DNA from: a virus
Virus record (IMG/VR): IMGVR_UViG_3300045911_000143
Coordinates: 1-64,000 of that record
Length of the DNA stretch: 64,000 nt
Strand: one strand, 5' to 3'
Both the position numbers and the translations under genes were made by a program. Below the pieces are notes generated by a model that made no database searches, was not told where the DNA came from, and was given only the letters and a program-made list of their open reading frames with translations. Positions 16,107-48,581 of the stretch are shown here, one piece after another. The number at the start of each line of letters is the position of its first letter. The first letter of the stretch is position 1.

Positions 16107-16123
16107 CTTTTTTATAATTTTTA

Positions 16124-34752: not shown

Positions 34753-34781
34753 TTGCATTGTATTCCATTCTATGATAAAAT
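34753..34781 (+). promoter_or_regulatory. Promoter with G-rich start (copy 1)
   Basis: TTGCAT-17-TAAAAT, then GGGATGGTAGGACGGGGATG at the expected start. It points away from the gene on its left and fires into a non-coding region. Confidence 0.65.
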
Positions 34782-34787
34782 GGGATG

Positions 34788-34945
34788 GTAGGACGGGGAT
34801 GGTGACAATATCCCCCTGTACCACACTTCCACTCCAATCTCCAAGATTGGAGAATCGCAGTCTGCAACACTGGAGGACAATGTTGCAGACTGTAGATTCT
34901 GAATCAGGCACTCGGGGCTGTCAACCCCTGTTCCCTTTCCTTCAT
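34788..34945 (+). ncRNA. Candidate structured small RNA
   Basis: Downstream of the copy-1 promoter, four hairpins in a row: GGGGAT/ATCCCC, CCAATCT/AGATTGG (34834-34850), an 18-bp stem with one bulge built on CAGTCTGCAACA (34858-34869 with 34881-34892), and GGGG/CCCC. The minus-strand 62-aa open frame across it looks incidental. The RNA would run antisense into the end of the next minus gene. Confidence 0.5.
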
Positions 34946-35482: not shown

Positions 35483-35854
35483 CTACATTCCTAGTTGTCT
35501 TGACAGAATCGTCACGGCGTCATCAACATCCTGCTTTGTATAAGGCTTGAGTTCGCCTCGCATCACTTGCTCGTCAATCCATTCACCATCGACTTCCCAG
35601 ACTTCACTATTGTCCAGACTGTCCCCGAAATGATCGAGATGACCAGTTGCATCAATCCATTCGCCGCTAGGCTTACGGACAGCCAGATGATTCACGTGGA
35701 AGTCATCATCACTTTCTGCGTCATCATTGAAGAAAACGTCCGCCACGATGGTTCCGCCATAGAGTTTCTGGAGGGCAATTGAAGCAACATGGCACCAGCC
35801 ATTGGTGTAGGCTTTGACGGCGAGACGATTCAGGGCTGCTTCGACATTGTTCAT
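35483..35854 (-). CDS. Cys-His-Asp triad-like protein, leaderless
   Basis: 123 aa from ATG 35854. N-G-W-C-H-V-A-S-I-A-L, later V-N-H-L-A-V and G-E-W-I-D-A-T-G give the order C...H...D seen in papain/transglutaminase-type folds. The same order appears in the protein at 47988-48497. The -10 TATAAT (35862-35867) is 7 bp from the ATG and no ribosome-binding site exists, so the mRNA should be leaderless. Confidence 0.65.
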   Translation of the reverse strand: MNNVEAALNRLAVKAYTNGWCHVASIALQKLYGGTIVADVFFNDDAESDDDFHVNHLAVRKPSGEWIDATGHLDHFGDSLDNSEVWEVDGEWIDEQVMRGELKPYTKQDVDDAVTILSRQLGM

Positions 35855-35861
35855 GAAATAG

Positions 35862-35890
35862 ATTATACCACGGTTTTTAGAGTTTGTAAA
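35862..35890 (-). promoter_or_regulatory. Sigma-70 promoter giving a leaderless mRNA
   Basis: TTTACA-17-TATAAT; 7 bp between the -10 and the start codon. Confidence 0.75.
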
Positions 35891-35903
35891 TGAGTGAGAG
35901 AGT

Positions 35904-36323
35904 TTAGGGTTGAACGCTTGGAGGACTGCCATAATTAGGGCAACCTCGTTCTGCATCAACATCCGTGGCGTGGCAGGCGCAGGTTATGCTCTCGAAAGAA
36001 TCACTGAGAAGATCAGTGTCGATGGTATAGATTACTGTCGTGCCGTTGACAGCACCACGAGAATCAAACTTGAAAGAAAGTACCAGTTCCGCCTCCCTAT
36101 CCTTGGTATGGACCCCATTCTGGCGGGACAGGAAATACACTACACCGGGTCCGGGGTTCTGGGTGCCTGTGTTGATATGCAGCGGCACCGTAGGATCGCC
36201 AGAATATGCACATTCATAAACAACATTTACGGGCATATTCGGGTTTTGCAGCAAGCAAAGTTGCTGTCCATCAGGATCAATGATGCAGAAGTTTGTCACG
36301 ATCATCAAGATGGCGTAGAGCAT
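35904..36323 (-). CDS. Exported Cys-rich protein
   Basis: 139 aa from ATG 36323 (AGAGGAAAAAATT upstream). Hydrophobic N-terminus MLYAILMIVTNFC looks like a short signal peptide or anchor. Several cysteines in the mature part, C-A-C near the end. Promoter TTTACT-17-TATAAT at 36346-36374. Confidence 0.65.
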   Translation of the reverse strand: MLYAILMIVTNFCIIDPDGQQLCLLQNPNMPVNVVYECAYSGDPTVPLHINTGTQNPGPGVVYFLSRQNGVHTKDREAELVLSFKFDSRGAVNGTTVIYTIDTDLLSDSFESITCACHATDVDAERGCPNYGSPPSVQP

Positions 36324-36417
36324 AATTTTTTCCTCTTGGACGAATATTATACCACATGATATGGCAGTAGTAAAGTCAAATATTTTGTGCAGTGGAGTAC
36401 CTCCGTCCGACCATCCC

Positions 36418-36446
36418 ATTTTATCATATAATGGAATAGAATGCAA
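36418..36446 (-). promoter_or_regulatory. Promoter with G-rich start (copy 2)
   Basis: TTGCAT-17-TAAAAT then GGGATGGTCGGACGGAGG, located between a tRNA terminator and the next gene's promoter, same direction as that gene. Confidence 0.65.
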
Positions 36447-36448
36447 GA

Positions 36449-36471
36449 AAAAGGCGGTAGAAACCGCCCTT
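36449..36471 (-). terminator. Intrinsic terminator after tRNA
   Basis: GGCGGT-TTCT-ACCGCC followed by TTTTT on the minus strand. Confidence 0.85.
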
Positions 36472-36487
36472 AAATGAATCCGCGATT

Positions 36488-36562
36488 TGGTGCCGCCTGA
36501 GCGACTTGCGCGCTCCTGATCTGCTTACAAGGCAGTTGCCTCGCTATCTAGGCTTAGGCGGC
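36488..36562 (-). tRNA. Atypical tRNA-Thr (UGU)
   Basis: 75 nt, CCA encoded. Acceptor GCCGCCT/AGGCGGC is perfect, D-stem GCCT/AGGC, anticodon loop CTTGTAA (UGU). The D-loop has no adjacent GG and the T-loop is CGCAAGT in place of TTCRANY, so the usual D-loop/T-loop contacts are missing. First anticodon-stem pair is A-A. Either a decaying tRNA or a tRNA-like element. Its own terminator follows. Confidence 0.65.
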
Positions 36563-36563
36563 T

Positions 36564-36650
36564 TTAATCGTAATGATCCAGCAAAATCCAGCATCCTGCA
36601 ACGAGGATTGCTGCCACAGTGATCCAGAACATTCGGGAGATTCGATGCAT
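36564..36650 (-). CDS. Possible 28-aa membrane peptide
   Basis: ATG 36650, hydrophobic centre (F-W-I-T-V-A-A-I-L-V-A-G). No good ribosome-binding site. Lies between the small RNA and the tRNA on the same strand. Confidence 0.35.
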   Translation of the reverse strand: MHRISRMFWITVAAILVAGCWILLDHYD

Positions 36651-36674
36651 TGGATTCAATCTTGAGTTAAGGGA

Positions 36675-36808
36675 ATGGTGGCGGAAACGTATTAGCGCCT
36701 TATTGATTCTCTTAGCCGGTCATCGACCAAAGGTTTCCGGCGCTAATCGGAAATCCTTTGCTGACCCATCCTAGCCATCCGCCTCAAGTGCGTTAGCAGG
36801 ACCACCAT
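36675..36808 (-). ncRNA. Two-copy structured small RNA, copy A
   Basis: The first 41 nt (36808-36768) are identical to copy B at 41467-41427. The 5' end ATGGTGG pairs with CCACCAT at the 3' end; inside, ATTAGCGCC pairs with GGCGCTAAT (9 bp) around a GGTC/GACC hairpin. The promoter places the start at the first base of the conserved block. The block also reads as a start codon and a short peptide (MVVLLTHLRRMAR...), so it may be a leaderless leader peptide, an RNA, or both. Confidence 0.65.
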
Positions 36809-36815
36809 ATGAAGC

Positions 36816-36844
36816 ATTATACTACCATTGGATCAGGATTGCAA
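36816..36844 (-). promoter_or_regulatory. Sigma-70 promoter of small RNA copy A
   Basis: TTGCAA-17-TATAAT, with 7 bp to the first base of the conserved RNA block. Confidence 0.75.
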
Positions 36845-36861
36845 GGACTTTACTATCTGGA

Positions 36862-37086
36862 TTAGTAATCGTCCCCGAAGTATCCATAATCTTCATCGGT
36901 TCCCATCCCAGCAGATGCCAGCGCCCAGCCGTCATCGGAATCATCGCAGTCGATTTCAGGCTCCTCATCAGGGTCTTCATAGGCCAGCATGGGATCGAAA
37001 ACTTCCCGGCAATCCATGCAAGTCCAATTGTCATCGTGCGTTTCCTGAGTGTTGAGGGAACCGCAGGCGGGGCAATGATAGTTCAT
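36862..37086 (-). CDS. Small zinc-ribbon, acidic protein
   Basis: 74 aa from ATG 37086 (GGAGAACCCCAA). C-P-A-C (about 5-8) and C-M-D-C (about 24-27) form a zinc ribbon; the rest is strongly Asp/Glu-rich. Could mimic DNA or bind RNA polymerase (inference). Promoter TTGCAC-17-TATAAT. Confidence 0.75.
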   Translation of the reverse strand: MNYHCPACGSLNTQETHDDNWTCMDCREVFDPMLAYEDPDEEPEIDCDDSDDGWALASAGMGTDEDYGYFGDDY

Positions 37087-37188
37087 TTGGGGTTCTCCGG
37101 TTGAGGAAAACATTATACTATGTTTGGTTGCAGGGTGCAAGCGATTACCTTGCTTTCCACCCTGCGCCTTCCACGAAAAGCGATTATC

Positions 37189-37392
37189 TTACTGATGCGA
37201 GATTTTTGCAATTCGCATCAAGTAGTTAGCCGCGTTGATGATGTATTCTTCATTCGTGATTGCGCGCTGCCAATACCATTGCTGGCGGGCCACGTATTCC
37301 CCCTTTCTTTCGTAAGGCATACGCTTTTCCCTTGCCTTCTCCCGATAGTGAAGAATACGCTTGGCGAAAACTTCGAGGATTTCAGGATTCAT
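37189..37392 (-). CDS. Small basic hypothetical protein
   Basis: 67 aa, helical, Arg/Glu-rich. Starts 4 bp after the preceding gene's stop, so it is coupled to it. Confidence 0.7.
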   Translation of the reverse strand: MNPEILEVFAKRILHYREKAREKRMPYERKGEYVARQQWYWQRAITNEEYIINAANYLMRIAKISHQ

Positions 37393-37396
37393 AGTA

Positions 37397-37624
37397 TCAT
37401 GCCTTATACTTTTTCACCAGTCCAGCCAAATTTTCTTCTGCCCCTTCAAGGCTTGTACGTTGCGAGCATGGCCGCCATTTGGTCTTAAAAGTGGGGCAAA
37501 TGGCGGTATCAAAATTGTTGTAACAGAATGTTTCCAGCACAATATGCGAATCATCCTCAAGCCGGACGATTGCATATTTCTTTTCTGCGCTGACCGTTAC
37601 AACCCTGATCGCTTGCACTAACAT
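37397..37624 (-). CDS. Hypothetical protein
   Basis: 75 aa; AGGAG sits too close to ATG 37624, and GTG 37618 has better spacing. Predicted beta barrel then helical tail. Unknown. Confidence 0.65.
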   Translation of the reverse strand: MLVQAIRVVTVSAEKKYAIVRLEDDSHIVLETFCYNNFDTAICPTFKTKWRPCSQRTSLEGAEENLAGLVKKYKA

Positions 37625-37652
37625 TCTCCTGATCGATTATGCTGCTATTGTA

Positions 37653-37865
37653 TCAGCCTTCCGCCCCAAGTTCAGCATAGGCAAGACTGATCGCAGCCGA
37701 ATCTGATTCGGTGTAAAAAAGTTCCGGCCACGACTTGTCGGGGTTGCCGTGGCGGTTCCAAATGAATTGGCCCAACCGCAGATGGGTGCCCTTGCGCGCA
37801 CCAACCTTGAAATACTCGTTAATCGTGGCGCTGAGGGTTTCGATGTTGCAGTTCAGGCGATCCAT
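37653..37865 (-). CDS. Small hypothetical protein
   Basis: 70 aa, AGGGAGAACACT site. Promoter TTGACT-16-TATAAT directly upstream. Unknown. Confidence 0.7.
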   Translation of the reverse strand: MDRLNCNIETLSATINEYFKVGARKGTHLRLGQFIWNRHGNPDKSWPELFYTESDSAAISLAYAELGAEG

Positions 37866-37931
37866 AGTGTTCTCCCTTGATATGGATTGTATTATATCAC
37901 AAAATGGATACCAGTCAACCCCCTTGATAGA

Positions 37932-37966
37932 AAAAGGGCCGCCAGTTTTTTGGCGGCCCTTTTTTG
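37932..37966 (-). terminator. Bidirectional intrinsic terminator
   Basis: AAAAAGGGCCGCCA and its near-complement with A and T runs on both sides, directly after the AT-hook gene stop. Confidence 0.9.
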
Positions 37967-38206
37967 TCAGATCAGCCCTTCCCTTTTGGCCTTACTCACA
38001 TATACCGCCGCGCTGGATTTCTTAATCCCAGACGCCACGACAGCATCCACGCGAGCCTTGTTCTCCGCATCGGCGGGGAGGGCCTTCAGAATCGCAACTG
38101 CGCGGTCATATGCGGTTTCGGCCAACTTGGGCCGTCCACGGCCACGCTTGGCTTGGATCACAGGGGCAGTGTTCTCGGGGTTTGTGACTTCGGTGTTATC
38201 ATTCAT
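37967..38206 (-). CDS. AT-hook DNA-binding protein (short paralogue)
   Basis: 79 aa. K-R-G-R-G-R-P-K (about 20-27) is an AT-hook that grips the minor groove. It is followed by L-A-E-T-A-Y-D-R-A-V and I-K-K-S-S-A-A-V-Y. The region is almost identical, also at DNA level, to the C-terminus of the protein at 46333-46950. Promoter TTGAAA-17-TATAAT. Probable nucleoid or transcription modulator. Confidence 0.8.
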   Translation of the reverse strand: MNDNTEVTNPENTAPVIQAKRGRGRPKLAETAYDRAVAILKALPADAENKARVDAVVASGIKKSSAAVYVSKAKREGLI

Positions 38207-38364
38207 GTTTCAGTTCCTATTTTGGTGGTGGAGGCTGTATTATACAACGATTAGATTAGACTTTCAAGCACCCCGTTGACGCATTCCAGTGACCGGGGTG
38301 GTGCAGGACCATTTGTTTTCAAGTGAGACTTACTATAGCACGCATCTTCTATCAAATACAAGTA

Positions 38365-38393
38365 TTGTAATGTAAGATATTTCGTGCTAAAAT
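38365..38393 (+). promoter_or_regulatory. Promoter with G-rich start (copy 3)
   Basis: TTGTAA-17-TAAAAT with TG extension, then GGGATGGTGGACGGGGATGG; about 35 nt later comes a strong hairpin. Confidence 0.65.
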
Positions 38394-38426
38394 GGGATGG
38401 TGGACGGGGATGGTATAAAAGAGAAA

Positions 38427-38454
38427 AAGGCGGGTGCCCTAGGACACCCGCCTT
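38427..38454 (-). terminator. Terminator of the ArdC-like gene
   Basis: AAGGCGGGTG/CACCCGCCTT perfect 10-bp stem, TTTTTCTCTTTT on the minus side. It may also stop the plus-strand RNA from copy 3. Confidence 0.85.
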
Positions 38455-38535
38455 GTCTTGTCACCAGCCACCACGGCTGGTTTCTCGCTTCGCCCTCTCA
38501 AGGTGTAACTATTATCTCACAAATGGGGGAGGGTG

Positions 38536-39402
38536 TCAACCCTCCCCTTCCCCCGCGTCAGGCTTGCGGTTCAGGATGTAGTCTGCCGCCTTTTGCGCCC
38601 TTGCCGCTGCGGTGGCGAACAAATGCGGATCGCTTCGCAGCGCGCGGGACCATCCGTCAAGGTACGCCGCAGTATTCTCAATCACCTTGGGGGCAATCCC
38701 GGCTTCGGCACTCAGGAAACATGCTGCCAGTTCCGCCACAAGTTCCTCGCGGCTGTATTCGTGGGAACCGAAATAGGAAGGCTGATCGATTTCTTTTCGG
38801 TTCAAGCGAGACTTGTGGCCGGTGCTATGGGCAAGTTCATGGAACAGAGTAGCATAGAAACTTTCCGCAGAATCGAAAGTCTCACGATGCGGTATATTGA
38901 TTTTGTCAATCGTTGGGATGTAACATGCACGCTCCCCGCCGTAGCGGATTTCGGGGCGGTTCGGCATACCATTGACAATGGCCTCACATGCGTCCAGAAC
39001 CGGGACAGCCTCGCGGGCCTCATGGGGCGGAAGTTCGATCCCGTCAACTTGCGCAATGTTGTAAACGAGGAAAAATCTGAAAATGGGGAAGGTTGATTCC
39101 TCGCCACTTTCATCGGTACGCTTCACCCAGTTCCAAAAATAGACCGGAGTATGCGCCTTTTCCTCGCCAGCCTTGATTGTTCCCCCGGCAGCCTTGATCT
39201 GATTGTAGGTCAGCCAGACCGATTCGGGATAACCCTTCATGACTTGTACCATGTTAAGCATGAAGGTGTTGATTCCCCGGTAGGTCCGTCCGCTGATGTT
39301 ACGCGGGGGGTCCGATGCCTTCCACGGCTTCAACCACGGGGCCGTACCATTTTCGATCATCTTAAGAATCTGATCGGTCAGAATCTGATAGACTTTCGAC
39401 AT
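38536..39402 (-). CDS. ArdC-like antirestriction protein with zincin domain
   Basis: 288 aa from ATG 39402 (CGGAGACGACGCT). N-terminal ssDNA-binding ArdC domain (I-E-x-G-T-A-P-W-L-K-P-W, Y-R-G-I-N-x-F) followed by a zinc metallopeptidase motif H-E-L-A-H-S-T-G-H and a conserved E-L-V-A-E-L. ArdC proteins of plasmids protect entering DNA from restriction enzymes. Promoter TTGACA-17-GATAAT just upstream. Fits an early defence-evasion role. Confidence 0.9.
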   Translation of the reverse strand: MSKVYQILTDQILKMIENGTAPWLKPWKASDPPRNISGRTYRGINTFMLNMVQVMKGYPESVWLTYNQIKAAGGTIKAGEEKAHTPVYFWNWVKRTDESGEESTFPIFRFFLVYNIAQVDGIELPPHEAREAVPVLDACEAIVNGMPNRPEIRYGGERACYIPTIDKINIPHRETFDSAESFYATLFHELAHSTGHKSRLNRKEIDQPSYFGSHEYSREELVAELAACFLSAEAGIAPKVIENTAAYLDGWSRALRSDPHLFATAAARAQKAADYILNRKPDAGEGEG

Positions 39403-39492
39403 AGCGTCGTCTCCGTTGATGGTGAAATCATTATCCGATATTAGCCTTTGGTTGTCAAGTGTCAATCGGCTATTTTTTGATCGTTTAAAGGC

Positions 39493-39520
39493 TTGACTAT
39501 CAGATTGGATGATGTATAAT
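39493..39520 (+). promoter_or_regulatory. Plus-strand sigma-70 promoter
   Basis: TTGACT-16-TATAAT, 7 bp before ATG 39528; divergent from the ArdC-like gene. Confidence 0.75.
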
Positions 39521-39527
39521 GCTTTAC

Positions 39528-39632
39528 ATGGTTAGGGCGGTAACGACAGCCCCGATCACAGCCCCGAAACGGGAACTTTGGCAACCTAGATTAATTGAGG
39601 GTAGGATGGTTTACCCCCGCGACGGCCCGTAA
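39528..39632 (+). CDS. Leaderless 34-aa protein or small RNA
   Basis: ATG 39528 to TAA 39632 encodes a Pro/Arg-rich 34-aa peptide (starts MVRAVTTAPITAP). The ATG is 7 bp from the -10. The transcript ends at the terminator at 39663-39698, about 170 nt in all, so it could be a noncoding RNA instead. One of very few plus-strand units in this region. Confidence 0.5.
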   Translation: MVRAVTTAPITAPKRELWQPRLIEGRMVYPRDGP

Positions 39633-39662
39633 GAAAAATTGATGGTTGTAAACCAAACGAGC

Positions 39663-39698
39663 AAAAAATCCAGACCAAAGTTATGGTCTGGATTTTTT
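39663..39698. terminator. Bidirectional intrinsic terminator
   Basis: AAAAAATCCAGACC / GGTCTGGATTTTTT, 14-bp stem. It serves the plus-strand unit at 39528 and the short minus RNA from copy 4. Confidence 0.9.
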
Positions 39699-39726
39699 AA
39701 TTTACAGCATCCCGTCCGACCATCCC

Positions 39727-39755
39727 ATTTTATCATATAATGGAATAGAATGCAA
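39727..39755 (-). promoter_or_regulatory. Promoter with G-rich start (copy 4)
   Basis: TTGCAT-17-TAAAAT then GGGATGGTCGGACGGGATG. With the terminator at 39663-39698 it would give an RNA of only about 60 nt and no coding content. Confidence 0.7.
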
Positions 39756-39756
39756 C

Positions 39757-39784
39757 AAAAAAGGGAGGCTTTTGCCTCCCTTTT
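39757..39784 (-). terminator. Intrinsic terminator
   Basis: AAGGGAGGC-AAAA-GCCTCCCTT with TTTT, after the 39-aa gene. Confidence 0.9.
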
Positions 39785-39791
39785 GAGTTTG

Positions 39792-39911
39792 TTAGAATCC
39801 TTCCCCGTAAACGAACGCATCCTGATCCGCTGCACGCTCGGCGGCCAACCGATCCAGCCATTCGTGGTAGGCAATGTCGGATTCTAACATTTCAAGTTCT
39901 TCGTCGTTCAT
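39792..39911 (-). CDS. Small acidic protein
   Basis: 39 aa (starts MNDEELEMLESD), acidic, ATG 39911. Promoter TTGACT with TATAAT about 20-50 bp upstream, own terminator. Too short for standard calling but well framed by signals. Confidence 0.65.
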   Translation of the reverse strand: MNDEELEMLESDIAYHEWLDRLAAERAADQDAFVYGEGF

Positions 39912-39959
39912 GGCTTCCTCCAGTTGGTGAAATCATTATATTACATCAACGCAGTTGAG

Positions 39960-40346
39960 TCAAGCGAAAACTTCGGAAATTTTCTGACGCCATTTTAGTT
40001 TTGCAGATTCTTTCACGAAAGCAATTTGCGTGCCGGACACCCCCATTTTCCAACACTCAACACCATCGTTATTTGCAGGGCCGAGATTGTAACAGGAAAC
40101 CAAGAAACCGGCTTCATGAAGGTGAAGGTCTAAGTATAGGGGGAACCACTGGCGCAGTTTTCTGACTGAAGGTGCGCCATAATACACTGTTCCGGGGTGT
40201 TGTCCCTTTAGTTTGTGGATGCCATCATTATATGGTGATGGATAACTTTCCCCAATGATTTCTCGGATAAGATCAGCCTGTCCGTCCCATTCATCGCAAC
40301 GGAATGGTCCCAAACCTTTCTCGTTTTCAACTCTATAGGCCAGCAT
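39960..40346 (-). CDS. Hypothetical protein, leaderless
   Basis: 128 aa. Promoter TTGAGA-17-TATGAT (40353-40381) ends 6 bp from the ATG and there is no ribosome-binding site. Contains several Trp and Tyr, unknown fold. Confidence 0.7.
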   Translation of the reverse strand: MLAYRVENEKGLGPFRCDEWDGQADLIREIIGESYPSPYNDGIHKLKGQHPGTVYYGAPSVRKLRQWFPLYLDLHLHEAGFLVSCYNLGPANNDGVECWKMGVSGTQIAFVKESAKLKWRQKISEVFA

Positions 40347-40384
40347 TGTAGTATCATACCATATATTATTTTATTTCTCAAGTG

Positions 40385-40413
40385 TTGTATTCTATTCCAT
40401 TCTATGATAAAAT
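40385..40413 (+). promoter_or_regulatory. Promoter with G-rich start (copy 5)
   Basis: TTGTAT-17-TAAAAT then GGGATGGTCGGACGGGG. The RNA would run antisense into the 3' end of the next minus gene. Confidence 0.65.
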
Positions 40414-40465
40414 GGGATGGTCGGACGGGGTTGGTAATAAGTGATTAAAACCTCCCTATATCTTT

Positions 40466-40738
40466 TCACGTTGGGTATTCCAAACGATGCTTTTTCAGTG
40501 CATCGGCACGATCCCATGCACGATAATAACACTCGACCTCACCATCCGCATCATAGACGCAATAGAGGGGGATATAAGAACCCCAATAGGTACCGCTCGG
40601 ATCATATCCGCCACGATCCAATCGAACCTTGCGGCAGTAGAGTTTGGCCGAACGATTGGCGTTGTAGTTGCGCCGACCCAAGGGAGCGCCACGAGAGCAG
40701 TTGACGGGGTTGGCTTTCAGACGTGCGTTAATGTCCAT
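40466..40738 (-). CDS. Conserved hypothetical protein, leaderless
   Basis: 90 aa from ATG 40738. G-A-P-L-G-R-R, C-R-K-V-R-L-D-R-G-G-Y-D-x-x-G-x-Y-W-G and L-Y-C-V-Y-D form a motif set I recall from phage and plasmid proteins of unknown role. TAGAAT is 7 bp from the ATG (-35 TTGATT); no ribosome-binding site. Confidence 0.75.
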   Translation of the reverse strand: MDINARLKANPVNCSRGAPLGRRNYNANRSAKLYCRKVRLDRGGYDPSGTYWGSYIPLYCVYDADGEVECYYRAWDRADALKKHRLEYPT

Positions 40739-40776
40739 GACCATCATTCTACACTGATTGGAATAGAAATCAAGTC

Positions 40777-40805
40777 TTGTAATGTAATTGATTTCGTGCT
40801 AAAAT
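40777..40805 (+). promoter_or_regulatory. Promoter with G-rich start (copy 6) and hairpin
   Basis: TTGTAA-17-TAAAAT then GGGATGGTGGTCGGTG; a perfect 8-bp hairpin GAAGTGAG/CTCACTTC follows at 40833-40852, just beyond the convergent gene's stop. Confidence 0.65.
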
Positions 40806-40861
40806 GGGATGGTGGTCGGTGATAGTGGTGAAGAAGTGAGTTGCCTCACTTCGGTCATACT

Positions 40862-41242
40862 CTAGTCGAGGAAAGAATACAAGGCTTCAACATTCAGCGA
40901 GCGATCATTATAGGCTGCCTCCCTCATCGCATAGAATCGCTCGCTCAATTCTTCGGTACATTTCTCAACATACTTCCACAGGGAAACATTGTAAAGCAAC
41001 AGGGTTAGGGCAACCCCGAAGGTGCGGTGATTCATCGTACCTTCATAGTAGTTGTTATCATTTACCACATTGTAAAGGCCCTCCGGGGCGATGACAAAAT
41101 CAAAGCCGCCGATGTTCTCGACAGTCCATTGACCGCCAGTGTAATCCTCAGAATGGTTCCGCGCAAGATTATACAGGCCATTCTCAGCCACGTGCGGGGG
41201 AAGTAGCGGAAAGATGCGAGCAAGATCATTCCAATTCATTGC
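40862..41242 (-). CDS. Hypothetical protein
   Basis: 126 aa from ATG 41242 (GAAAGAAAGAAA region). Promoter TTGACA-17-TATAAT between 41250 and 41300. Unknown function. Confidence 0.7.
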   Translation of the reverse strand, partial: AMNWNDLARIFPLLPPHVAENGLYNLARNHSEDYTGGQWTVENIGGFDFVIAPEGLYNVVNDNNYYEGTMNHRTFGVALTLLLYNVSLWKYVEKCTEELSERFYAMREAAYNDRSLNVEALYSFLD

Positions 41243-41355
41243 CATCAGATTTCTTTCTTTCAGTGTTGGGGTATTATATTCCATTATAGGATGGTTGTCA
41301 AGCGTTTTGGTTAGTCAACCCGCAAACATCCCTTGTCCAGTTCACTTAGGTTGGT

Positions 41356-41467
41356 TGGTGGCGTGGTCTAATCGACATTAACCCTCTTGTTGACACTACG
41401 CAGTCGATATTCGCGTTATACGTCTTATCCTAGCCATCCGCCTCAAGTGCGTTAGCAGGACCACCAT
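41356..41467 (-). ncRNA. Two-copy structured small RNA, copy B
   Basis: 41-nt identity with copy A from the first base. Terminal helix TGGTGG/CCACCA and GTGGTC/GACCAC alternatives, internal helix ATCGAC/GTCGAT in the place of copy A's 9-bp stem. Sequence between the helices differs while pairing is kept, which supports RNA structure. The short frame reads MVVLLTHLRRMAR then diverges. Confidence 0.65.
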
Positions 41468-41474
41468 GCAAAAC

Positions 41475-41502
41475 ATTATACAGTGTTTTCTTCCGTTGTC
41501 AA
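41475..41502 (-). promoter_or_regulatory. Sigma-70 promoter of small RNA copy B
   Basis: TTGACA-16-TATAAT, 7 bp before the conserved block. Confidence 0.8.
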
Positions 41503-41560
41503 TAGTGGAGTTATCAGATTGGTGACTTTAAAGATGCATTCCCCCCGTCCTCCTGTCACC

Positions 41561-41589
41561 ATTTTAGCATGGAATGTAATACAATGCAA
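41561..41589 (-). promoter_or_regulatory. Promoter with G-rich start (copy 7)
   Basis: TTGCAT-17-TAAAAT then GGTGACAGGAGGACGGGGGG; GGTGAC pairs with GTCACC about 30 nt on. Confidence 0.6.
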
Positions 41590-41708
41590 GTCTTGACAAA
41601 CGATTTTTTTTATGGGAGACTAATCGCAAGGCATCCTCTTGTCACAAAAGATTCATAAGATATTTTTCAAAAAACGCTTGACAGTAACATTTCATTATGT
41701 TACACTAA

Positions 41709-42134
41709 TCAGTTGGCCAGTTTCAGTGCCAGCACTTCAATATTACCAAACGATTCAAAGTAATTGCTCCAAGGGTTATCCAATTTAACCTGTTTACCAT
41801 CGGATGATGTGTATACAAGGTATTGATTTTTCTGACAATTATTCAATTCAGATTCAGCCCTTCTAGCATCACATTCTGTTTCATATACGTCAAAAAATTT
41901 TATATTTGCATCCATGTTCCATCCGAGTGAGTCGTCAGTATCATAGATTGCAACAAGGGCGTAATAGAGTTGGCCCACCTTTGGTGTGAAGCCAACATCA
42001 ACAAATTCGTTGCCGTATGTCAACGATAGTTGACCAAACTTCCATTCAGTAATGGTGTTGGGATGTGAATGATCTTGCGATCCAAAACCGTCTTCATAAG
42101 ACAATTTTGAATATTGCAAATAGATTCTAGGCAT
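41709..42134 (-). CDS. Hypothetical protein
   Basis: 141 aa, beta-rich. Preceded by the promoter/hairpin element at 42154-42183, so probably regulated with the genes at 55758 and downstream of 49163. Unknown function. Confidence 0.7.
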   Translation of the reverse strand: MPRIYLQYSKLSYEDGFGSQDHSHPNTITEWKFGQLSLTYGNEFVDVGFTPKVGQLYYALVAIYDTDDSLGWNMDANIKFFDVYETECDARRAESELNNCQKNQYLVYTSSDGKQVKLDNPWSNYFESFGNIEVLALKLAN

Positions 42135-42153
42135 CTGGATGACCTATTAAGTC

Positions 42154-42183
42154 CTAACGCATACGTTAGTAGGGTCCAGTATA
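42154..42183 (-). promoter_or_regulatory. Promoter plus 5' hairpin element (copy 1)
   Basis: -10 TATACT (42183-42178), conserved upstream CCACAACTA, then an RNA beginning near GGACC and folding CTAACG-TATG-CGTTAG (42169-42154) with AGGAC directly after the stem. Confidence 0.65.
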
Positions 42184-42256
42184 CACTAGTTGTGGGAAAA
42201 TTAAAAGCTTACAGTTTAACAAAGTGATAGTCAGTTTTTCGACCTTCTTTGTCCTG

Positions 42257-42445
42257 TTATTCTGAGACGTAGGAAACCTTGACTTCAACACCATTAATGG
42301 TGAAAACCTTGTCCTTCTTTTGGGGAAGGTCAGCAAAGAATAGATCAACGCTCTCTGTGGTGAATCGTCTGGAAAGTACCTCTGCCAATTCTTTGCTGGT
42401 CATGATAAGATCATTTTTTCCGATGGCGCTAACTTTGACAATCAT
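42257..42445 (-). CDS. Small hypothetical protein
   Basis: 62 aa from ATG 42445 with GGAGAAAGTC upstream (the TTG four codons earlier is part of that site). Small alpha/beta layout. Unknown. Confidence 0.7.
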   Translation of the reverse strand: MIVKVSAIGKNDLIMTSKELAEVLSRRFTTESVDLFFADLPQKKDKVFTINGVEVKVSYVSE

Positions 42446-42474
42446 GACTTTCTCCAACCTACGAGGATATCATA

Positions 42475-42717
42475 TCAGTCCTTTTTGTAGAATTCAAACT
42501 TTGCGCCATTTTTACAAGTGGCAATAATCAAACCTTTTCTATTGTAGGACAATTCCTTGAGTCCGCTATTATTATCACACTTTTTGGCAGCCAACTCGTA
42601 GGTTTCGGGAGCAAGGGGTGAGGACATAATCAAGGGATCGAAAACAAGTGCCTCCAGCATCAGAGTGATGGCCACGCCAAGAAGAGCAGAAATCAGATTC
42701 GTGAAAAAATCAGTCAT
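42475..42717 (-). CDS. Membrane-anchored small protein
   Basis: 80 aa, hydrophobic segment about 4-27, then a soluble part with two Cys suited to a disulphide. AGAGGAAAGGGTAAC upstream. Confidence 0.7.
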   Translation of the reverse strand: MTDFFTNLISALLGVAITLMLEALVFDPLIMSSPLAPETYELAAKKCDNNSGLKELSYNRKGLIIATCKNGAKFEFYKKD

Positions 42718-42718
42718 G

Positions 42719-42901
42719 TTACCCTTTCCTCTTGTGAATGTCTTTACAATACTTTACCACAATGTCGGGTGGGAGTCCATCATGGTTAATCAAAGAAAGG
42801 CGAACAGTTTCGGCGTCAGGTGCATCCATGTAAACAGTGTCATGGGGGATCAAGTCGCCATTCCGATTCTTACGATATACTGTCCATGCTCGCAGCGTCA
42901 T
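42719..42901 (-). CDS. Small hypothetical protein
   Basis: 60 aa from ATG 42901 (AAGGAGATTCCA). Lies 1 bp upstream of the membrane-anchored gene, one operon. Unknown. Confidence 0.7.
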   Translation of the reverse strand: MTLRAWTVYRKNRNGDLIPHDTVYMDAPDAETVRLSLINHDGLPPDIVVKYCKDIHKRKG

Positions 42902-42976
42902 TGGAATCTCCTTCATTTGATGAAACCATTATACCGCAATGGAAAGGAAATTGCAAGAGTGGGGATTATCATCCAT

Positions 42977-43357
42977 TTAGGGGTTATACTGTTCTCCATT
43001 TACCCACCACTCTTGTGTTCCGTCAGAACGGATTACAGCGGGTTGGCCATTGTCGCGGTGACGTACTCCGTTAACCCACCACTCTTGTGTTCCGTCAGAA
43101 CGGATTACAGCGGGTTGGCCATTGTCGCGGTGACGTTCTCCATTAACCCACCACTCTTGTGACCCATCGGGGTGAATTACAGCAGGTTGGTCTCCAAGGC
43201 GGTGCTTTACTCCGTCCTTCCACCAGCCTTGATACCCATTAGTTAGAATTAAAGCCGGTAAATCATCTCCTCGATGCCGAACACCATACTGATTTTGGTA
43301 CTCAGTCCGTATTAGCCTGCCGTCATCATCAAAAGTTTCTAGCCTATTGATCGTCAT
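42977..43357 (-). CDS. HRDGD-type repeat protein
   Basis: 126 aa from ATG 43357 (TTGGAGATAATA). Unique N-terminus L-I-R-T-E-Y-Q-N-Q-Y-G-V-R-H, then four 23-aa repeats of H-R-x-x-x-x-P-A-V-I. The last two units are almost identical at DNA level. TATAAATA late promoter at 43379-43386. Same family as 12850-13545 and 63208-63660. Confidence 0.8.
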   Translation of the reverse strand: MTINRLETFDDDGRLIRTEYQNQYGVRHRGDDLPALILTNGYQGWWKDGVKHRLGDQPAVIHPDGSQEWWVNGERHRDNGQPAVIRSDGTQEWWVNGVRHRDNGQPAVIRSDGTQEWWVNGEQYNP

Positions 43358-43445
43358 TATTATCTCCAATTTTTGGGATATTTATAATAGTATTTCATGA
43401 TGGAAATCTAGGATTCCATCATCTCCCAAAAATGTTTTCACACTT

Positions 43446-43631
43446 TCAACGAGGATTGAGGGTGTCAACAATCCTCGTTGAAAACTCACCGTCAAACTGG
43501 GTTTTCTGCAAAACCACAATTTTACGATTTTGTTCCTTTGCCAAAGCCTGTGCCAGTGCAATAGCAAACTTGTAATGCTTTTCAGGGAAAACCAAACCTT
43601 CAACCAGATATTCACCGACATTCGCACTCAT
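43446..43631 (-). CDS. Small hypothetical protein
   Basis: 61 aa from ATG 43631 (AAGGGAAAAAATA), overlapping the upstream small basic gene by 20 bp. Alpha/beta with a helix-rich middle. Unknown. Confidence 0.7.
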   Translation of the reverse strand: MSANVGEYLVEGLVFPEKHYKFAIALAQALAKEQNRKIVVLQKTQFDGEFSTRIVDTLNPR

Positions 43632-43737
43632 TATTTTTTCCCTTATGTTTTGGGTTGCGTTGGTAGTCGTTCTTGCGGTCCTTATGCTTTGCCGCTTTGT
43701 TGAATTTTCGGAAATGTTTGGCAACAGGATTCTTCAC
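43612..43737 (-). CDS. Small Lys/Arg-rich protein, GTG start
   Basis: 41 aa from GTG 43737. K-N-P-V-A-K-H-F-R-K-F-N-K, K-H-K-D-R-K resembles a small very basic protein common in phages. AGAGAATAGGGAC upstream. Promoter with TATAAT near 43765. Possibly nucleic-acid binding. Confidence 0.65.
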   Translation of the reverse strand: MKNPVAKHFRKFNKAAKHKDRKNDYQRNPKHKGKNNECECR

Positions 43738-43770
43738 GTCCCTATTCTCTAAATTGATTGAAGCATTATA

Positions 43771-44250
43771 CTATGGATTGATTGTGCTGTCAATCATGAT
43801 TTGTTCATTTGTCGTTTGGGGTGAGGCCGGAGTGAATGAAAAAATACATGATGACTGACCGAATTGGTCAAGTTCCTCGAAACTATCAATCAATTCTGCA
43901 CTTAATTTAATTAATCCAGTGACAACGGCTACACCGTTTTCATTACGTACCACTTCTTTACGGTGGGCGTAACCAGAAATCTCATATGGTGGCAGACACC
44001 ATCCCAAAGGCCCTACGAATTCTTCTGGGCATTGATCCGTTAAAAGAACGTACCGGAAGGGATTTAAAAATTCTGTGAAGATTCCTCCGGGTGTTACCCC
44101 TTCTTTCTCTGAACAAAATCTTCTGCCTCTATAGACGTTTGTGTCATAGCACACAATGTCTGTGAAAACTTGAGGTTCAGATTCAATTACTGTGCAGATC
44201 GGATAACCCGCTGAAATAATTGATGATATTAGTAGAACATTTGTCAACAT
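43771..44250 (-). CDS. Exported Cys-rich protein
   Basis: 159 aa. Short hydrophobic N-terminus MLTNVLLISSIISAG resembles a signal peptide lacking a basic n-region. Mature part has at least seven Cys. Similar in style to the exported proteins at 24642 and 35904. Confidence 0.6.
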   Translation of the reverse strand: MLTNVLLISSIISAGYPICTVIESEPQVFTDIVCYDTNVYRGRRFCSEKEGVTPGGIFTEFLNPFRYVLLTDQCPEEFVGPLGWCLPPYEISGYAHRKEVVRNENGVAVVTGLIKLSAELIDSFEELDQFGQSSCIFSFTPASPQTTNEQIMIDSTINP

Positions 44251-44318
44251 TTTTCAATTCCAATAGGAAATCAATCCAAAAAGGATTGATTCCATGATAC
44301 TATGGAATTTGTAAAATG

Positions 44319-44603
44319 TCAATCAAGATTTGCTTCTACAAGAATCGTAATCTGTGATTCATGACCTTCATGGTCGATCAAGAACATTGACGATCCAGAC
44401 ACTTCAATTTCTTGGTTTTCCCCTTCCATGAACTTGGTACTGTATTCACAACCATCTGCACTATACCAAGTGACATACATGAATTCATTTTCATCCTTGC
44501 CGGTAAGAATGCCCAGCGATGGAAACGTCACTACACCATCCAAAACGATTCCGGCAGCGTTTTGGATAATCTTAAGAGCCTCGGGAAGTGTGATCTTTTT
44601 CAT
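44319..44603 (-). CDS. Hypothetical protein with long structured 5' leader
   Basis: 94 aa, N-terminal helix then beta-rich. The promoter lies about 155 bp upstream, leaving a long leader. No good ribosome-binding site at the ATG. Unknown function. Confidence 0.65.
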   Translation of the reverse strand: MKKITLPEALKIIQNAAGIVLDGVVTFPSLGILTGKDENEFMYVTWYSADGCEYSTKFMEGENQEIEVSGSSMFLIDHEGHESQITILVEANLD

Positions 44604-44765
44604 AGTATGACTTACCTGCTGTATGACTTACGTGCTGGAAAACTTGCGGGTGAACCACATCCCCGCTACCCGGTGGTATTGCCACAAATATTTCCTATCT
44701 ACATCATCGGTGGGTTGTGGCACCCGGTTTGTTTAATGATTTTTGCTATGCTTCCATTATAGCAT
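44604..44765 (-). promoter_or_regulatory. Structured 5' leader and promoter
   Basis: Promoter TTGACA-16-TATAAT (44757-44784) followed by roughly 150 nt with GGGT/ACCC, GCGGG/CCCGC and GTGG/CCAC hairpins, a 10-codon frame, and a direct repeat GTAAGTCATAC in the last 30 nt before the ATG. It has the size of a riboswitch or attenuator; no known class recognised. Confidence 0.5.
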
Positions 44766-44779
44766 GTTTTTCAAGATTG

Positions 44780-44968
44780 TCAAACTGGCTCGCCTTCATC
44801 ATCCACGGTCAGGCGTGTAATATGCCTCAAATCTTCCACACTTACATATTCATATGTATTCATGTCGAGCAATGCTTGCCAATCCCATCGAGATGGATCG
44901 TCATTCTCAGATGAAGTCTGAATCTTAAGTGTGATTACATATTGATCTACACTAAACTGACGACTCAT
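44780..44968 (-). CDS. Small acidic hypothetical protein
   Basis: 62 aa, acidic C-terminus. Lies between tRNA-Lys and the previous gene's promoter. Unknown. Confidence 0.65.
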   Translation of the reverse strand: MSRQFSVDQYVITLKIQTSSENDDPSRWDWQALLDMNTYEYVSVEDLRHITRLTVDDEGEPV

Positions 44969-44991
44969 ACTATTTTCTCAGTGAGGTTGGA

Positions 44992-45067
44992 TGGTGGAAC
45001 CGGTGGGACTCGAACCCACAACCAATAGATTAAAAGTCTACTGCGCTACCAATTGCGCCACGGTTCC
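44992..45067 (-). tRNA. tRNA-Lys (UUU)
   Basis: 76 nt cloverleaf: acceptor GGAACCG/CGGTTCC, anticodon loop CTTTTAA, T-arm GTGGG-TTCGAGT-CCCAC, CCA encoded. Confidence 0.96.
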
Positions 45068-45079
45068 AATATACTTACA

Positions 45080-45259
45080 TTATACTTTGTTTTTCGACTT
45101 TGTCAACCCATCTTGCTTCAACAAACCCGAAAGGATAATTCTGGCTCGGATGATAGCATTGAATTCAGCCGTTGACAACGGCTTTCCGCTACCTTTTACA
45201 ATGATGCGAGAAAGATCAGTGATTGCCTGCTGAACCTGTTCCTTGTTGATTACTTTCAC
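45080..45259 (-). CDS. Small hypothetical protein, GTG start
   Basis: 59 aa from GTG 45259 (TTGGAGAATCTGC). Helical and basic. Overlaps the preceding gene by 44 bp in another frame. Unknown. Confidence 0.6.
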   Translation of the reverse strand: MKVINKEQVQQAITDLSRIIVKGSGKPLSTAEFNAIIRARIILSGLLKQDGLTKSKNKV

Positions 45260-45440
45260 GCAGATTCTCCAAGTAGGTTAGTCTTTCTCTCGCAGCATCA
45301 GCCAATCGTTGGACATGCTCAATTTGAGCCCTGAAATACTCTAGGCGGCTATTATACCATCCCACCCCTTGTCGTGTCAAGGAAATTGCCCATTCGATTT
45401 CCTCATTGGTTTGAGGATTGTTGAGATTGAGCATGTTCAT
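45216..45440 (-). CDS. Small hypothetical protein
   Basis: 74 aa, mostly helical (R-A-Q-I-E-H-V-Q-R-L-A-D-A-A-R-E-R), likely a coiled coil. Unknown. Confidence 0.65.
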   Translation of the reverse strand: MNMLNLNNPQTNEEIEWAISLTRQGVGWYNSRLEYFRAQIEHVQRLADAARERLTYLENLRESNQQGTGSAGNH

Positions 45441-45444
45441 GGCT

Positions 45445-45609
45445 TCACTTATTCTTGAGAAATTCCATTAATATCAGCGGCCAAAAAAGACCGACTACAA
45501 TGTATTCAATTATACTCCATTCTTTGTGTTCGTCAACCAAGTTAGAATTCAGCATCAGGGTTAAGGCCATAGCAACGGCAGCAGTCAGATAGAAGTCCCA
45601 GAAATTCAT
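45445..45609 (-). CDS. Small two-pass membrane protein
   Basis: 54 aa from ATG 45609 with AGCCGGA upstream and ATGA overlap with the previous stop. Hydrophobic at about 5-20 and 33-50. Confidence 0.65.
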   Translation of the reverse strand: MNFWDFYLTAAVAMALTLMLNSNLVDEHKEWSIIEYIVVGLFWPLILMEFLKNK

Positions 45610-45797
45610 TCCGGCTCCACATCAATGACTACATCCTTCAACGATGCACCGGTGATGTTGGCAAACGCTTGACGCAGTACCGCAATGGAATACTCACGGT
45701 GCTCGTCATCAATAAACTCAAGATGCTGAATTTCGTAGCGTTCATTTGGGAGACCAACCGAAGGATCGTTACGGACCAGAATGTTAACGGTGTGCAT
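45606..45797 (-). CDS. Small hypothetical protein
   Basis: 63 aa from ATG 45797 (GGAGAACACC). Promoter TTGACA-17-TATAAT overlapped by the 12-bp inverted repeat at 45831-45863. Unknown. Confidence 0.7.
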   Translation of the reverse strand: MHTVNILVRNDPSVGLPNERYEIQHLEFIDDEHREYSIAVLRQAFANITGASLKDVVIDVEPE

Positions 45798-45830
45798 GGT
45801 GTTCTCCAACCGATGAAATCATTATATTTC

Positions 45831-45863
45831 AACATGGGAGGCTTGTCAATAGCCTCCCATGTT
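45831..45863 (-). promoter_or_regulatory. Promoter overlapped by inverted repeat
   Basis: AACATGGGAGGC and its exact complement, 9-bp spacer containing the TTGACA -35. Could be an operator or a terminator of the upstream gene. Confidence 0.55.
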
Positions 45864-45865
45864 TT

Positions 45866-46192
45866 TCAAGAACAAGACTTGATAACGTTGATAACATCCT
45901 GAACGCGGGTCGAAACTTTCGTCAAAATGTCACGCTCACGCTCACTACGCTGAATCCCACATTCATCAAAAATCTTCCGAATGCTGCGAGCAGCGTTACG
46001 GGCAGCATCGCGGGTTTTCATCCCGCCGATTCGCTTTCCACTGTTAGGGTCGGTTACGGCCCAACCAGTGAGATTTTTCACCGCACCGGACGGTACTACT
46101 TGCACGTTACGATGGATATAAAAACCAGCAACAGTTTCACCGTTGACCGGCTTGAACCCGTAATCATTGAAGTAAACCTTAACATTACGCAT
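45866..46192 (-). CDS. Hypothetical protein
   Basis: 108 aa, CGGAGAAATTAA upstream. Basic helical C-terminal half (T-R-D-A-A-R-N-A-A-R). Unknown; possible nucleic-acid binder. Confidence 0.7.
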   Translation of the reverse strand: MRNVKVYFNDYGFKPVNGETVAGFYIHRNVQVVPSGAVKNLTGWAVTDPNSGKRIGGMKTRDAARNAARSIRKIFDECGIQRSERERDILTKVSTRVQDVINVIKSCS

Positions 46193-46214
46193 TTAATTTC
46201 TCCGGTGCGTTAGA

Positions 46215-46240
46215 ATGGGAGCATTGTAATATGCTCCCAT
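46215..46240 (-). promoter_or_regulatory. Promoter with palindromic -10 region
   Basis: TTGACT-17-TACAAT; ATGGGAGCAT and its exact complement flank a 6-bp centre that contains the -10 start. Likely operator. Confidence 0.55.
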
Positions 46241-46332
46241 CCTTCAGTCAAGTGTTAGGTGGCTGTTAAACTTCCAGTATCGTAAGGACAGGGAAAATTA
46301 TAAACCCTGAACTCAGGCAATACCGGAAACCG

Positions 46333-46950
46333 TCAAACTCGCGGAATCACGCCCGCCTGCCGTGCGTTGCACAGATAAACGTGGGCACTCGACTTCTTAA
46401 TACCAGCGGCTTCCAGCGCAGAGATAACCGTCTTGGTATCATACTTGTCGAGGCTTCGCATGATCTTAACGGCGCGGTCATATGCGGTTTCGGCCAGTTT
46501 GGGACGACCACGGCCACGCTTGGCTTGGATCACTTCGGGGACGGCCACGATAGGTGCAGCATCTACAGCGGGCGTTGGGGCCTCCACCGTGGTTTCCGGG
46601 GCATCATCGACCGTCACCGTCACTTCCGGCTCAGGCGCGACTTCCACGACCACAGGGGCGGAATAGACAACCGGCACGAGGTCAGCCGGGACTTCCTTCA
46701 CGACGGCGGCAGAAAGAGCCTTAACCCGGCTCGAAACATATGCCTTAACCCTGTTTAGGTCATTCTCACCCTTGAGGACGGCATTGCAGATATACTTGGC
46801 GATCAGATTTGGGTTGTCGCCACCATGAATGTCAAACAGGGACGTAAACAGGGACGCATCTTCACTCGGCATGGCATCCACGAAAGCCGTGGCATCCACG
46901 ACCGAGGTCAGGGGGATATCAAACTTTTCCAGATACGATGTCAGGTTCAT
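46333..46950 (-). CDS. AT-hook DNA-binding protein (long paralogue)
   Basis: 205 aa from ATG 46950 (AAAGGAAAGCAA). An in-frame ATG at 46989 lies 7 bp from the -10 TATAAT and could give a 218-aa leaderless form. N-terminal unknown domain, a long Val/Pro/Ala-rich linker (about 95-150), then K-R-G-R-G-R-P-K AT-hook and the I-K-K-S-S-A-x-V-Y domain shared with 37967-38206. Probable DNA-architecture or transcription factor. Confidence 0.8.
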   Translation of the reverse strand: MNLTSYLEKFDIPLTSVVDATAFVDAMPSEDASLFTSLFDIHGGDNPNLIAKYICNAVLKGENDLNRVKAYVSSRVKALSAAVVKEVPADLVPVVYSAPVVVEVAPEPEVTVTVDDAPETTVEAPTPAVDAAPIVAVPEVIQAKRGRGRPKLAETAYDRAVKIMRSLDKYDTKTVISALEAAGIKKSSAHVYLCNARQAGVIPRV

Positions 46951-47036
46951 TTGCTTTCCTTTGTTAGTGCCGGGACCATCCCCGACCATGTGAAGCATTA
47001 TACACCGTTTCAGTTGAATTGCAATATCCCGATGTG

Positions 47037-47075
47037 TTGTATTTTTACCACAACTCTTGTTGTATTTTTACCACA
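47037..47075. repeat. Repeated 16-mer TTGTATTTTTACCACA
   Basis: Two copies (47037-47052 and 47060-47075) just upstream of the copy-8 promoter; a third at 48545-48560 upstream of the gene at 47988. The first and third share 21 bp. Candidate protein-binding site. Confidence 0.6.
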
Positions 47076-47079
47076 TCGC

Positions 47080-47108
47080 TTGACAATCTTTACATTACAT
47101 GTTAAAAT
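47080..47108 (+). promoter_or_regulatory. Promoter with G-rich start (copy 8)
   Basis: TTGACA-17-TAAAAT then AGGTTGGTGGTTG, the best -35 of the set. Confidence 0.7.
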
Positions 47109-47129
47109 AGGTTGGTGGTTGAGATGATA

Positions 47130-47165
47130 ACAAATAACCCCAAGCCCATTGTGGCGGGCTTGGGG
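47130..47165 (-). terminator. Intrinsic terminator
   Basis: CCCCAAGCCC/GGGCTTGGGG 10-bp stem with TTATTTGTT on the minus side, after the 254-aa gene. It would also be the first hairpin of the plus RNA from copy 8. Confidence 0.8.
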
Positions 47166-47174
47166 CGGAAGCCC

Positions 47175-47939
47175 TTAGAAATCAAGGGCTTCGAGCAGCA
47201 ACGTGGCTTGAGGAGAGGCAGCAATATCATCCGGGGTGATATTCTCCCGATTGATTGTAATACTTTCAAAGTTATCAGCCTTGAGGCTGAAAGTCTTGAT
47301 CCCCACACTACGCTTGTTTAAGCAGCGTTCAATACAATTCTTCATGCGGACACTCGCACCAGAATTGACCACCTTCCGCTCACCCTCTACAACTGTCGTC
47401 GATGAAAGTTCCAGATAAAAGAGCATGATGGTTTCCGCTACCGGCAAACCATTGAATAGAACAGGCTCCATGATGCCATTTTCCTTTCGGCAGTCAAGGT
47501 TGACCTTAACACCATCAGCCACCGTGACATAACAACGATCATGCCCTTTCCGGTATCCATCGCTACGGTCGCCGTCATTGGTCTTAATCAGGGACTCCAA
47601 TTCCTGAGCCTTACGACCAGCGAACAGGGTCTTGAGAGTAGTATGGTCCATCACGGACAAAACCGGATCATTCTTGACGTACTCTGCCACATCGTCGAAC
47701 GCGATGGCTTCCAGTGCCTTGATCTTGCGATCATACAAATTCCGAATGGAAAACCGGGTGATGAAATTGATATTCTTGGACGGGGGCTTAGTGTATCCAG
47801 TGGAAGGCTTGTAACCGTGAATGGTTCCAATGCCGCCCTTCTGAATGGTAATGAGACGATCCAGCGTTTCGGCCTGAGCCGGGGTGCAAAGGAAAGGGCG
47901 GCTACCCTTGGTATATGTGACCAGCGATTCAGTATTCAT
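47175..47939 (-). CDS. Hypothetical protein
   Basis: 254 aa, AGAGGATAACACTGCT upstream, promoter TTGACA with TATACT at about 47970. Largest unknown in the early region. Mixed alpha/beta, no motif recognised. Confidence 0.75.
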   Translation of the reverse strand: MNTESLVTYTKGSRPFLCTPAQAETLDRLITIQKGGIGTIHGYKPSTGYTKPPSKNINFITRFSIRNLYDRKIKALEAIAFDDVAEYVKNDPVLSVMDHTTLKTLFAGRKAQELESLIKTNDGDRSDGYRKGHDRCYVTVADGVKVNLDCRKENGIMEPVLFNGLPVAETIMLFYLELSSTTVVEGERKVVNSGASVRMKNCIERCLNKRSVGIKTFSLKADNFESITINRENITPDDIAASPQATLLLEALDF

Positions 47940-47987
47940 AGCAGTGTTATCCTCTCTGCGAGCGTGAGAACAGTATAGCAGGATTTT

Positions 47988-48497
47988 TCAATCTGTCAAT
48001 GTACGACGAAAAACATCTTCAATATATGCTCGCATAGTGGGGATTTGTGCTCGGTTGAATTCAGAATTCCAATTATCTTCTGTTTCCACAATAGCCTCAA
48101 GCGCCTCTAGCGAAAGTTCACCGTCAAGCAGATAGTAGGCATATTCATAATTATACCCATCTACACGATCAACGGGACCATCAACGGCGTCCCAAAAGAA
48201 TCCGTCAAACTCCAATCGAATATGATTGAAGTAAACATTATTAGCGTTCCATAGGTCAGCGTCATTTGGGACGCAACCCTCTTGTGCAATCAAGGTTTTT
48301 TCTACTTCTGAAACATCAACAGGGTCATCGTGGGACCACACACGAATTTTATAATTAAACACCCCATATCGTTCCAGAATCTTTGCTAATTCAAGAGCAA
48401 AGATGCCGCAACCACCTCGATTAATACGGTGAACGCAGTCGCAGATATGACCACAAATCTTATCCAAAGCGTTGCAGATGGATTCGTTAGTGTGCAT
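47988..48497 (-). CDS. Cys-His-Asp triad-like protein, leaderless
   Basis: 169 aa from ATG 48497. R-G-G-C-G-I-F-A-L-E-L, then F-N-H-I-R-L-E and F-W-D-A-V-D-G give C...H...D in the order found at 35483-35854. A C-G-H-I-C-D-C cluster lies at the N-terminus. Promoter TTGACA-16-TATACT (48505-48532) ends 7 bp from the ATG. Confidence 0.65.
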   Translation of the reverse strand: MHTNESICNALDKICGHICDCVHRINRGGCGIFALELAKILERYGVFNYKIRVWSHDDPVDVSEVEKTLIAQEGCVPNDADLWNANNVYFNHIRLEFDGFFWDAVDGPVDRVDGYNYEYAYYLLDGELSLEALEAIVETEDNWNSEFNRAQIPTMRAYIEDVFRRTLTD

Positions 48498-48581
48498 GAC
48501 AAGTAGTATAACACAATTAAATAACTTGTCAATCATTTCAAGTGTTGTATTTTTACCACAACAAATCTATGTATTACTATC

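Follow-up and report, generated by a model that had tools for sequence, protein, structure and literature searches.

In the promoter-dense early regions of T4-like phages, many small genes lie behind strong host-type promoters, an arrangement that the gene cluster described here resembles. Translation of leaderless messages by 70S ribosomes fits mRNAs that begin with AUG and carry no Shine-Dalgarno (SD) sequence (PMC9031893), TA-like signals about 10-12 bp before the start are a marker of leaderless genes in bacteria (PMC3160421), and work on phage AR9 notes a frequent absence of leaders from phage transcripts (PMC5312081). A preliminary description of the phage DNA analysed here proposed eight leaderless units, each with a -10 box 6-7 bp before its start codon, as a distinct class whose translation could continue under an altered 30S or SD pathway. 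The results below support ordinary leaderless expression for a part of this set and call for a different reading of most of the remainder.

Results

The window, that is, the whole 64,000-nucleotide stretch analysed, represents positions 1-64000 of a virus record of 78,354 bases, an uncultured phage fragment. Its G+C fraction stays near 0.30 over the first 33 kb, lies mostly at 0.42-0.50 between 34 and 48 kb, and is about 0.40 beyond; a 12-bp tandem repeat is located at 33255-33386, near the sharp rise. The window encodes ribonucleotide reductase subunits, two RNA ligases, several tRNAs and a GOLLD RNA (60930-61352, minus strand, above the Rfam cut-off). At the curated cut-off Rfam recognized tRNAs and GOLLD only, and sub-threshold Rfam matches at 34.4-42.2 kb were regarded as chance. 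The region at 34-50 kb is a cluster of small genes, most of them on the minus strand and some encoding ArdC-like and antirestriction proteins, with 69 sigma70-promoter-like sites vs. 29 in shuffled sequence, and we infer that it is expressed early. No close relatives of the phage were found in the phage collection or in IMG/VR, including by IMG/VR protein searches with 40346, 48497, 47939 and the RNA ligase (genes are referred to by the position of their start); loci anchored on ArdC provided one distant relative, which also carries the 47939 protein. As further observations on the window, 72-nt repeats occur within coding sequence at two distant places (42991-43285 and 63235-63597), and the block IQAKRGRGRPKLAETAYDRAV is common to two minus-strand proteins (37967-38206 and 46333-46950), near the C-terminal half.

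At all eight proposed sites, an ATG does follow a -10-like hexamer at 6-7 bp, the promoters being scored with a matrix that assumes an E. coli-like sigma70. Across 34 minus-strand starts at 34-51 kb, a list that we curated partly from signals, the -10-to-ATG distances were bimodal, i.e., either 6-7 bp without an SD or 22-46 bp, usually with one (three entries of the list, 37088, 43630 and 44970, sit a few bases off the start codon, and none of these is in the 6-7 bp class). The short-distance class consists of the values 6, 7 and 7, plus 7 for 40738, with no gene at 0-5 or 8-21 bp. When the upstream regions were shuffled, strong promoters at 6-7 bp averaged 0.015 vs. the three observed, and three were reached in 0 of 1000 shuffles. 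Most promoter-bearing genes of the cluster fall at 22-46 bp, usually with an SD, so that the normal leaders ascribed earlier to the neighbouring genes hold and the two geometries exist side by side.

Four minus-strand protein genes, i.e., 35854, 40346, 40738 and 48497, carry the leaderless signature. All four start with ATG, none has an SD within the 18 nt upstream (in agreement with the reported lack of a ribosome-binding site), and the spacing places the predicted transcription start at most about 2 nt from the start codon. The base before the ATG is C in three of the four, while the initial sequences of the genes differ (ATGAAC, ATGCTG, ATGGAC and ATGCAC), and coding scores over their first 40 codons range from 0.08 to 0.21 with these genes excluded from the training set. 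The good -10 described for these genes applies to 35854, 40346 and 48497 (promoter scores 12.5-14.5), while the promoter of 40738 is weak (9.0). Based on these sequence features, leaderless expression is well supported for the former three genes and probable for the latter.

The gene at 35854 (35483-35890 with its promoter; 123 aa) is preceded by TTTACA (35885-35890) and TATAAT (35862-35867) in the arrangement TTTACA-17-TATAAT-7-ATG, which scores 14.3, and a homologue search with its protein found none. The gene at 40346 (39960-40381; 128 aa) has TTGAGA (40376-40381) and TATGAT (40353-40358), i.e., TTGAGA-17-TATGAT-6-ATG with a score of 12.5, and its ATG is the first possible start codon after the upstream stop. 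Its protein belongs to PHROG 1106 (unknown function); the whole protein has a coding score near zero (-0.02), yet homologues exist, and in a Desulfovibrio phage an ATG lies one residue earlier in the homologous frame. At 40738 (40466-40773; 90 aa), the promoter is TTGATT-16-TAGAAT-7-ATG (TTGATT at 40768-40773 and the weak TAGAAT at 40746-40751), and an Achromobacter phage homologue starts within about 6 residues of this ATG. The gene at 48497 (47988-48532; 169 aa) has the highest-scoring promoter of the four (14.5), TTGACA-16-TATACT-7-ATG (TTGACA at 48527-48532 and TATACT at 48505-48510). The ATG upstream of it at 48536 has no SD and the corresponding extension scores non-coding (-0.15); a Sphaerotilus phage homologue, aligned on a shared GGCG motif, starts within three residues of ATG 48497. 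No better in-frame start was found at 40346, 40738 or 48497, the comparative support being a single distant homologue for each. The homologues themselves seem leadered, with SD-like sequence before the Desulfovibrio and Achromobacter phage starts, and therefore the leaderless arrangement is not common to them.

Two observations made nearby or with the same signals are worth recording. The inverted-repeat motif GTTGTGGTAAAAATACAAC occurs in three copies (47034-47077 and 48542-48562), directly upstream of the -35 elements of the 46997 and 48505 promoters, and looks like a candidate regulator site. In the AT-rich arm, a plus-strand segment (16090-16402) has TTGACC-17-TATAAT with an ATG 5 bp downstream, no SD and a 92-codon ORF, and is possibly a further leaderless gene.

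The other four of the eight units were less consistent with a leaderless gene. The unit at 46989 (46333-47024, minus strand; 205-aa protein) has a predicted RNA start at 46989, followed by a 39-nt leader with a GC hairpin and then by the in-frame ATG 46950, which has the SD AAGGA at 6 nt and is the better start. The 5' AUG at 46989 is in frame with ATG 46950 and the 13-codon extension between them is open with a positive coding score, so a leaderless form with 13 extra residues could also be made, judging from the reading frame. On the plus strand, the unit at 39528 (39493-39700; TTGACT 39493-39498, TATAAT 39515-39520, predicted RNA start 39528) contains a 34-codon ORF (39528-39632) followed by a terminator-like hairpin. 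The coding score of this ORF is ambiguous (-0.11, between 0.26 for coding and -0.24 for non-coding sequence), and the unit may represent either a short non-coding RNA or a 34-codon gene.

The units at 36808 and 41467 (both minus strand; 36440-36844 and 41350-41502 with their promoters, the 3' end of the latter being approximate) share a 5' domain that is 93% identical over 55 nt, and are probably paralogous non-coding RNAs rather than leaderless genes. Their ORFs span only 21 and 23 codons with coding scores of -0.30 and -0.74, and the 5' AUGGUGG of each predicted RNA can pair with a downstream CCACCA. Neither fold is significantly stabilized relative to shuffled sequences (z -1.6 and -0.5), and a search of IMG/VR for exact DNA matches to the non-coding RNA core gave none. 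The predicted 36808 transcript extends into a sequence (36488-36562, minus strand) that resembles tRNA-Thr(TGT) and has an unusual T loop; this sequence was missed by standard ARAGORN, detected by its mitochondrial model, and has weak blastn matches to the tRNA-Thr of two phages. The geometry reported as common to 46989, 36808 and 41467 exists as a -10-to-ATG spacing, but probably does not mark the main start of a leaderless gene; what the two RNAs and the leader at 46989 have in common with the leaderless set is solely an AUGG at the predicted RNA 5' end. Taken together, the eight proposed units resolve into three firm candidates for leaderless genes (35854, 40346 and 48497), one probable (40738) and one ambiguous case (39528), with 36808 and 41467 set aside for their non-coding scores and 46989 read as probably leadered, given its SD-led ATG at 46950.

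A second promoter type was also seen in the cluster, as a repeated element composed of TTGnAT, TTGTAA or TTGACA, 17 bp, TAAAAT, and then GGGATGGT or similar. Copies are found on both strands, at 34753-34808, 36403-36452, 38365-38420, 39712-39761, 40385-40440, 40777-40832 and 47080-47118; some precede stable hairpins and may give rise to short RNAs.

The same geometry was sought in IMG/VR with the pattern TTGACA-N16-18-TATAAT-N6-7-ATG and, as a control, with N12-13 before the ATG, and the two scans were compared by the fraction of matches opening ORFs among the matches listed. Among these, an ORF of at least 50 codons was opened at 94 of 151 sites with the 6-7 bp spacing (62%) vs. 30 of 120 sites at 12-13 bp (25%) and 21% for random ATGs. 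A pyrimidine preceded the ATG at 112 of the 151 and 38 of the 120 sites, respectively, and an SD-like word was present in only 1 of the 94 ORF-opening sites at 6-7 bp, again among the matches listed. With the pattern sites removed, distance 6 kept 26 starts vs. 0-11 at other distances below 13, a peak that derives from contigs chosen for having such a site among the matches listed; in 1.0 Mb of loci chosen irrespective of promoters, the number was small, with 3 starts at 6-7 bp that include two close homologues. The ORFs found in IMG/VR at this geometry encode, for instance, DNA polymerase, UvsY, primase, thymidylate synthase and a late-transcription coactivator. The geometry is thus found in other phages as well as in the present one, and the matches listed suggest that leaderless sigma70 promoters are a recurrent feature of phages that extends to core genes.

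Discussion

We consider it probable, from promoter spacing and reading frames, that 35854, 40346, 48497 and likely 40738 are expressed as ordinary leaderless mRNAs from host sigma70-type promoters. Under this model, the host sigma70-type RNA polymerase would initiate on the A of the start codon or on the base preceding it, yielding an mRNA with a 5'-terminal AUG and no SD that would be translated mainly by 70S ribosomes that bind at this AUG. We infer the exact RNA 5' end, the use of the host polymerase and 70S initiation from the signals described above, and the polymerase may start one or two bases off, giving a leader of 1-2 nt.

Alternatively, some of these genes might start elsewhere or sit on longer transcripts, with the short spacing being incidental. 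The upstream ATG 35932, which has the weak SD GAGGT 10 nt before it, could be taken to offer such a start for 35854, and 40738, with a promoter score of only 9.0, is perhaps carried on an upstream transcript. Nonetheless, the extension from ATG 35932 crosses the promoter and scores non-coding (-0.24), 40738 would be without an SD whichever transcript carries it, and the spacing at the three other genes is far from chance; hence, we regard this alternative as unlikely. It is also conceivable that an ATG at the RNA 5' end is an unselected by-product of the initial sequence (CA or AUGG) of a promoter family, given that 36808, 41467, 46989 and 39528 share TATAATG(C/T)TT..-ATGG and are not clear genes. 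This idea has the least credence among those considered here, since the four protein genes combine differing initial sequences with long open frames and no SD, and ORFs are in excess at this spacing across IMG/VR, among the matches listed.

A different proposal is that the leaderless set represents a dedicated class, translated while either the phage or a host defence interferes with the 30S or SD pathway. The adjacency of both geometries in the cluster is compatible with such a class, and work on E. coli (Vesper 2011, cited in PMC4631060) counts in its favour. However, SD leaders are kept by most of the neighbours, including the ArdC-like gene and 47939, and in other phages this spacing is found at a variety of genes for replication and metabolism; we regard a dedicated class as a very slim prospect. 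No ribosome-modifying family was matched among the proteins scanned (a subset of the ORFs), and a PADLOC scan gave no matches. An initiator tRNA was considered as a link to leaderless translation and rejected, as the tRNA-Met(CAT) lacks, in our reading, the GGG/CCC anticodon stem. The suggested benefit under an altered 30S or SD pathway thus finds no backing in the leaders of the neighbours, in the families matched by the proteins scanned or in the tRNA-Met, and the presence of the geometry in unrelated phage contigs means that no special translation state is needed as explanation. The broader version of this idea, i.e., that leaderless genes, including replication genes of other phages, are kept expressed under restricted SD initiation as a wider phage strategy, strikes us as only marginally less improbable.

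Ordinary leaderless expression therefore remains our preferred reading of the four protein genes. Sorting the eight units in this way yields concrete candidates for leaderless phage genes, and the recurrence of the geometry matters for the annotation of gene starts and for the competition of phage messages for ribosomes.

In conclusion, leaderless translation is an already known way of making protein, and the genes described here would be further instances of it. Like leaderless mRNAs of bacteria and phages (lambda cI type), they have an AUG at the predicted 5' end, no SD, and a sigma70 -10 element 6-7 bp upstream; unlike these, they are three to four small genes without an assigned function among SD-led neighbours, with 5' ends that are predicted. 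With TA-led bacterial genes (PMC3160421) they share the lack of an SD and a TAnnnT-type signal whose first T precedes the start by 12-13 bp, but they belong to a phage and have a near-consensus -35 as well as a -10. Finally, the cluster differs from T4-like early regions in that a subset of its genes would be without leaders.
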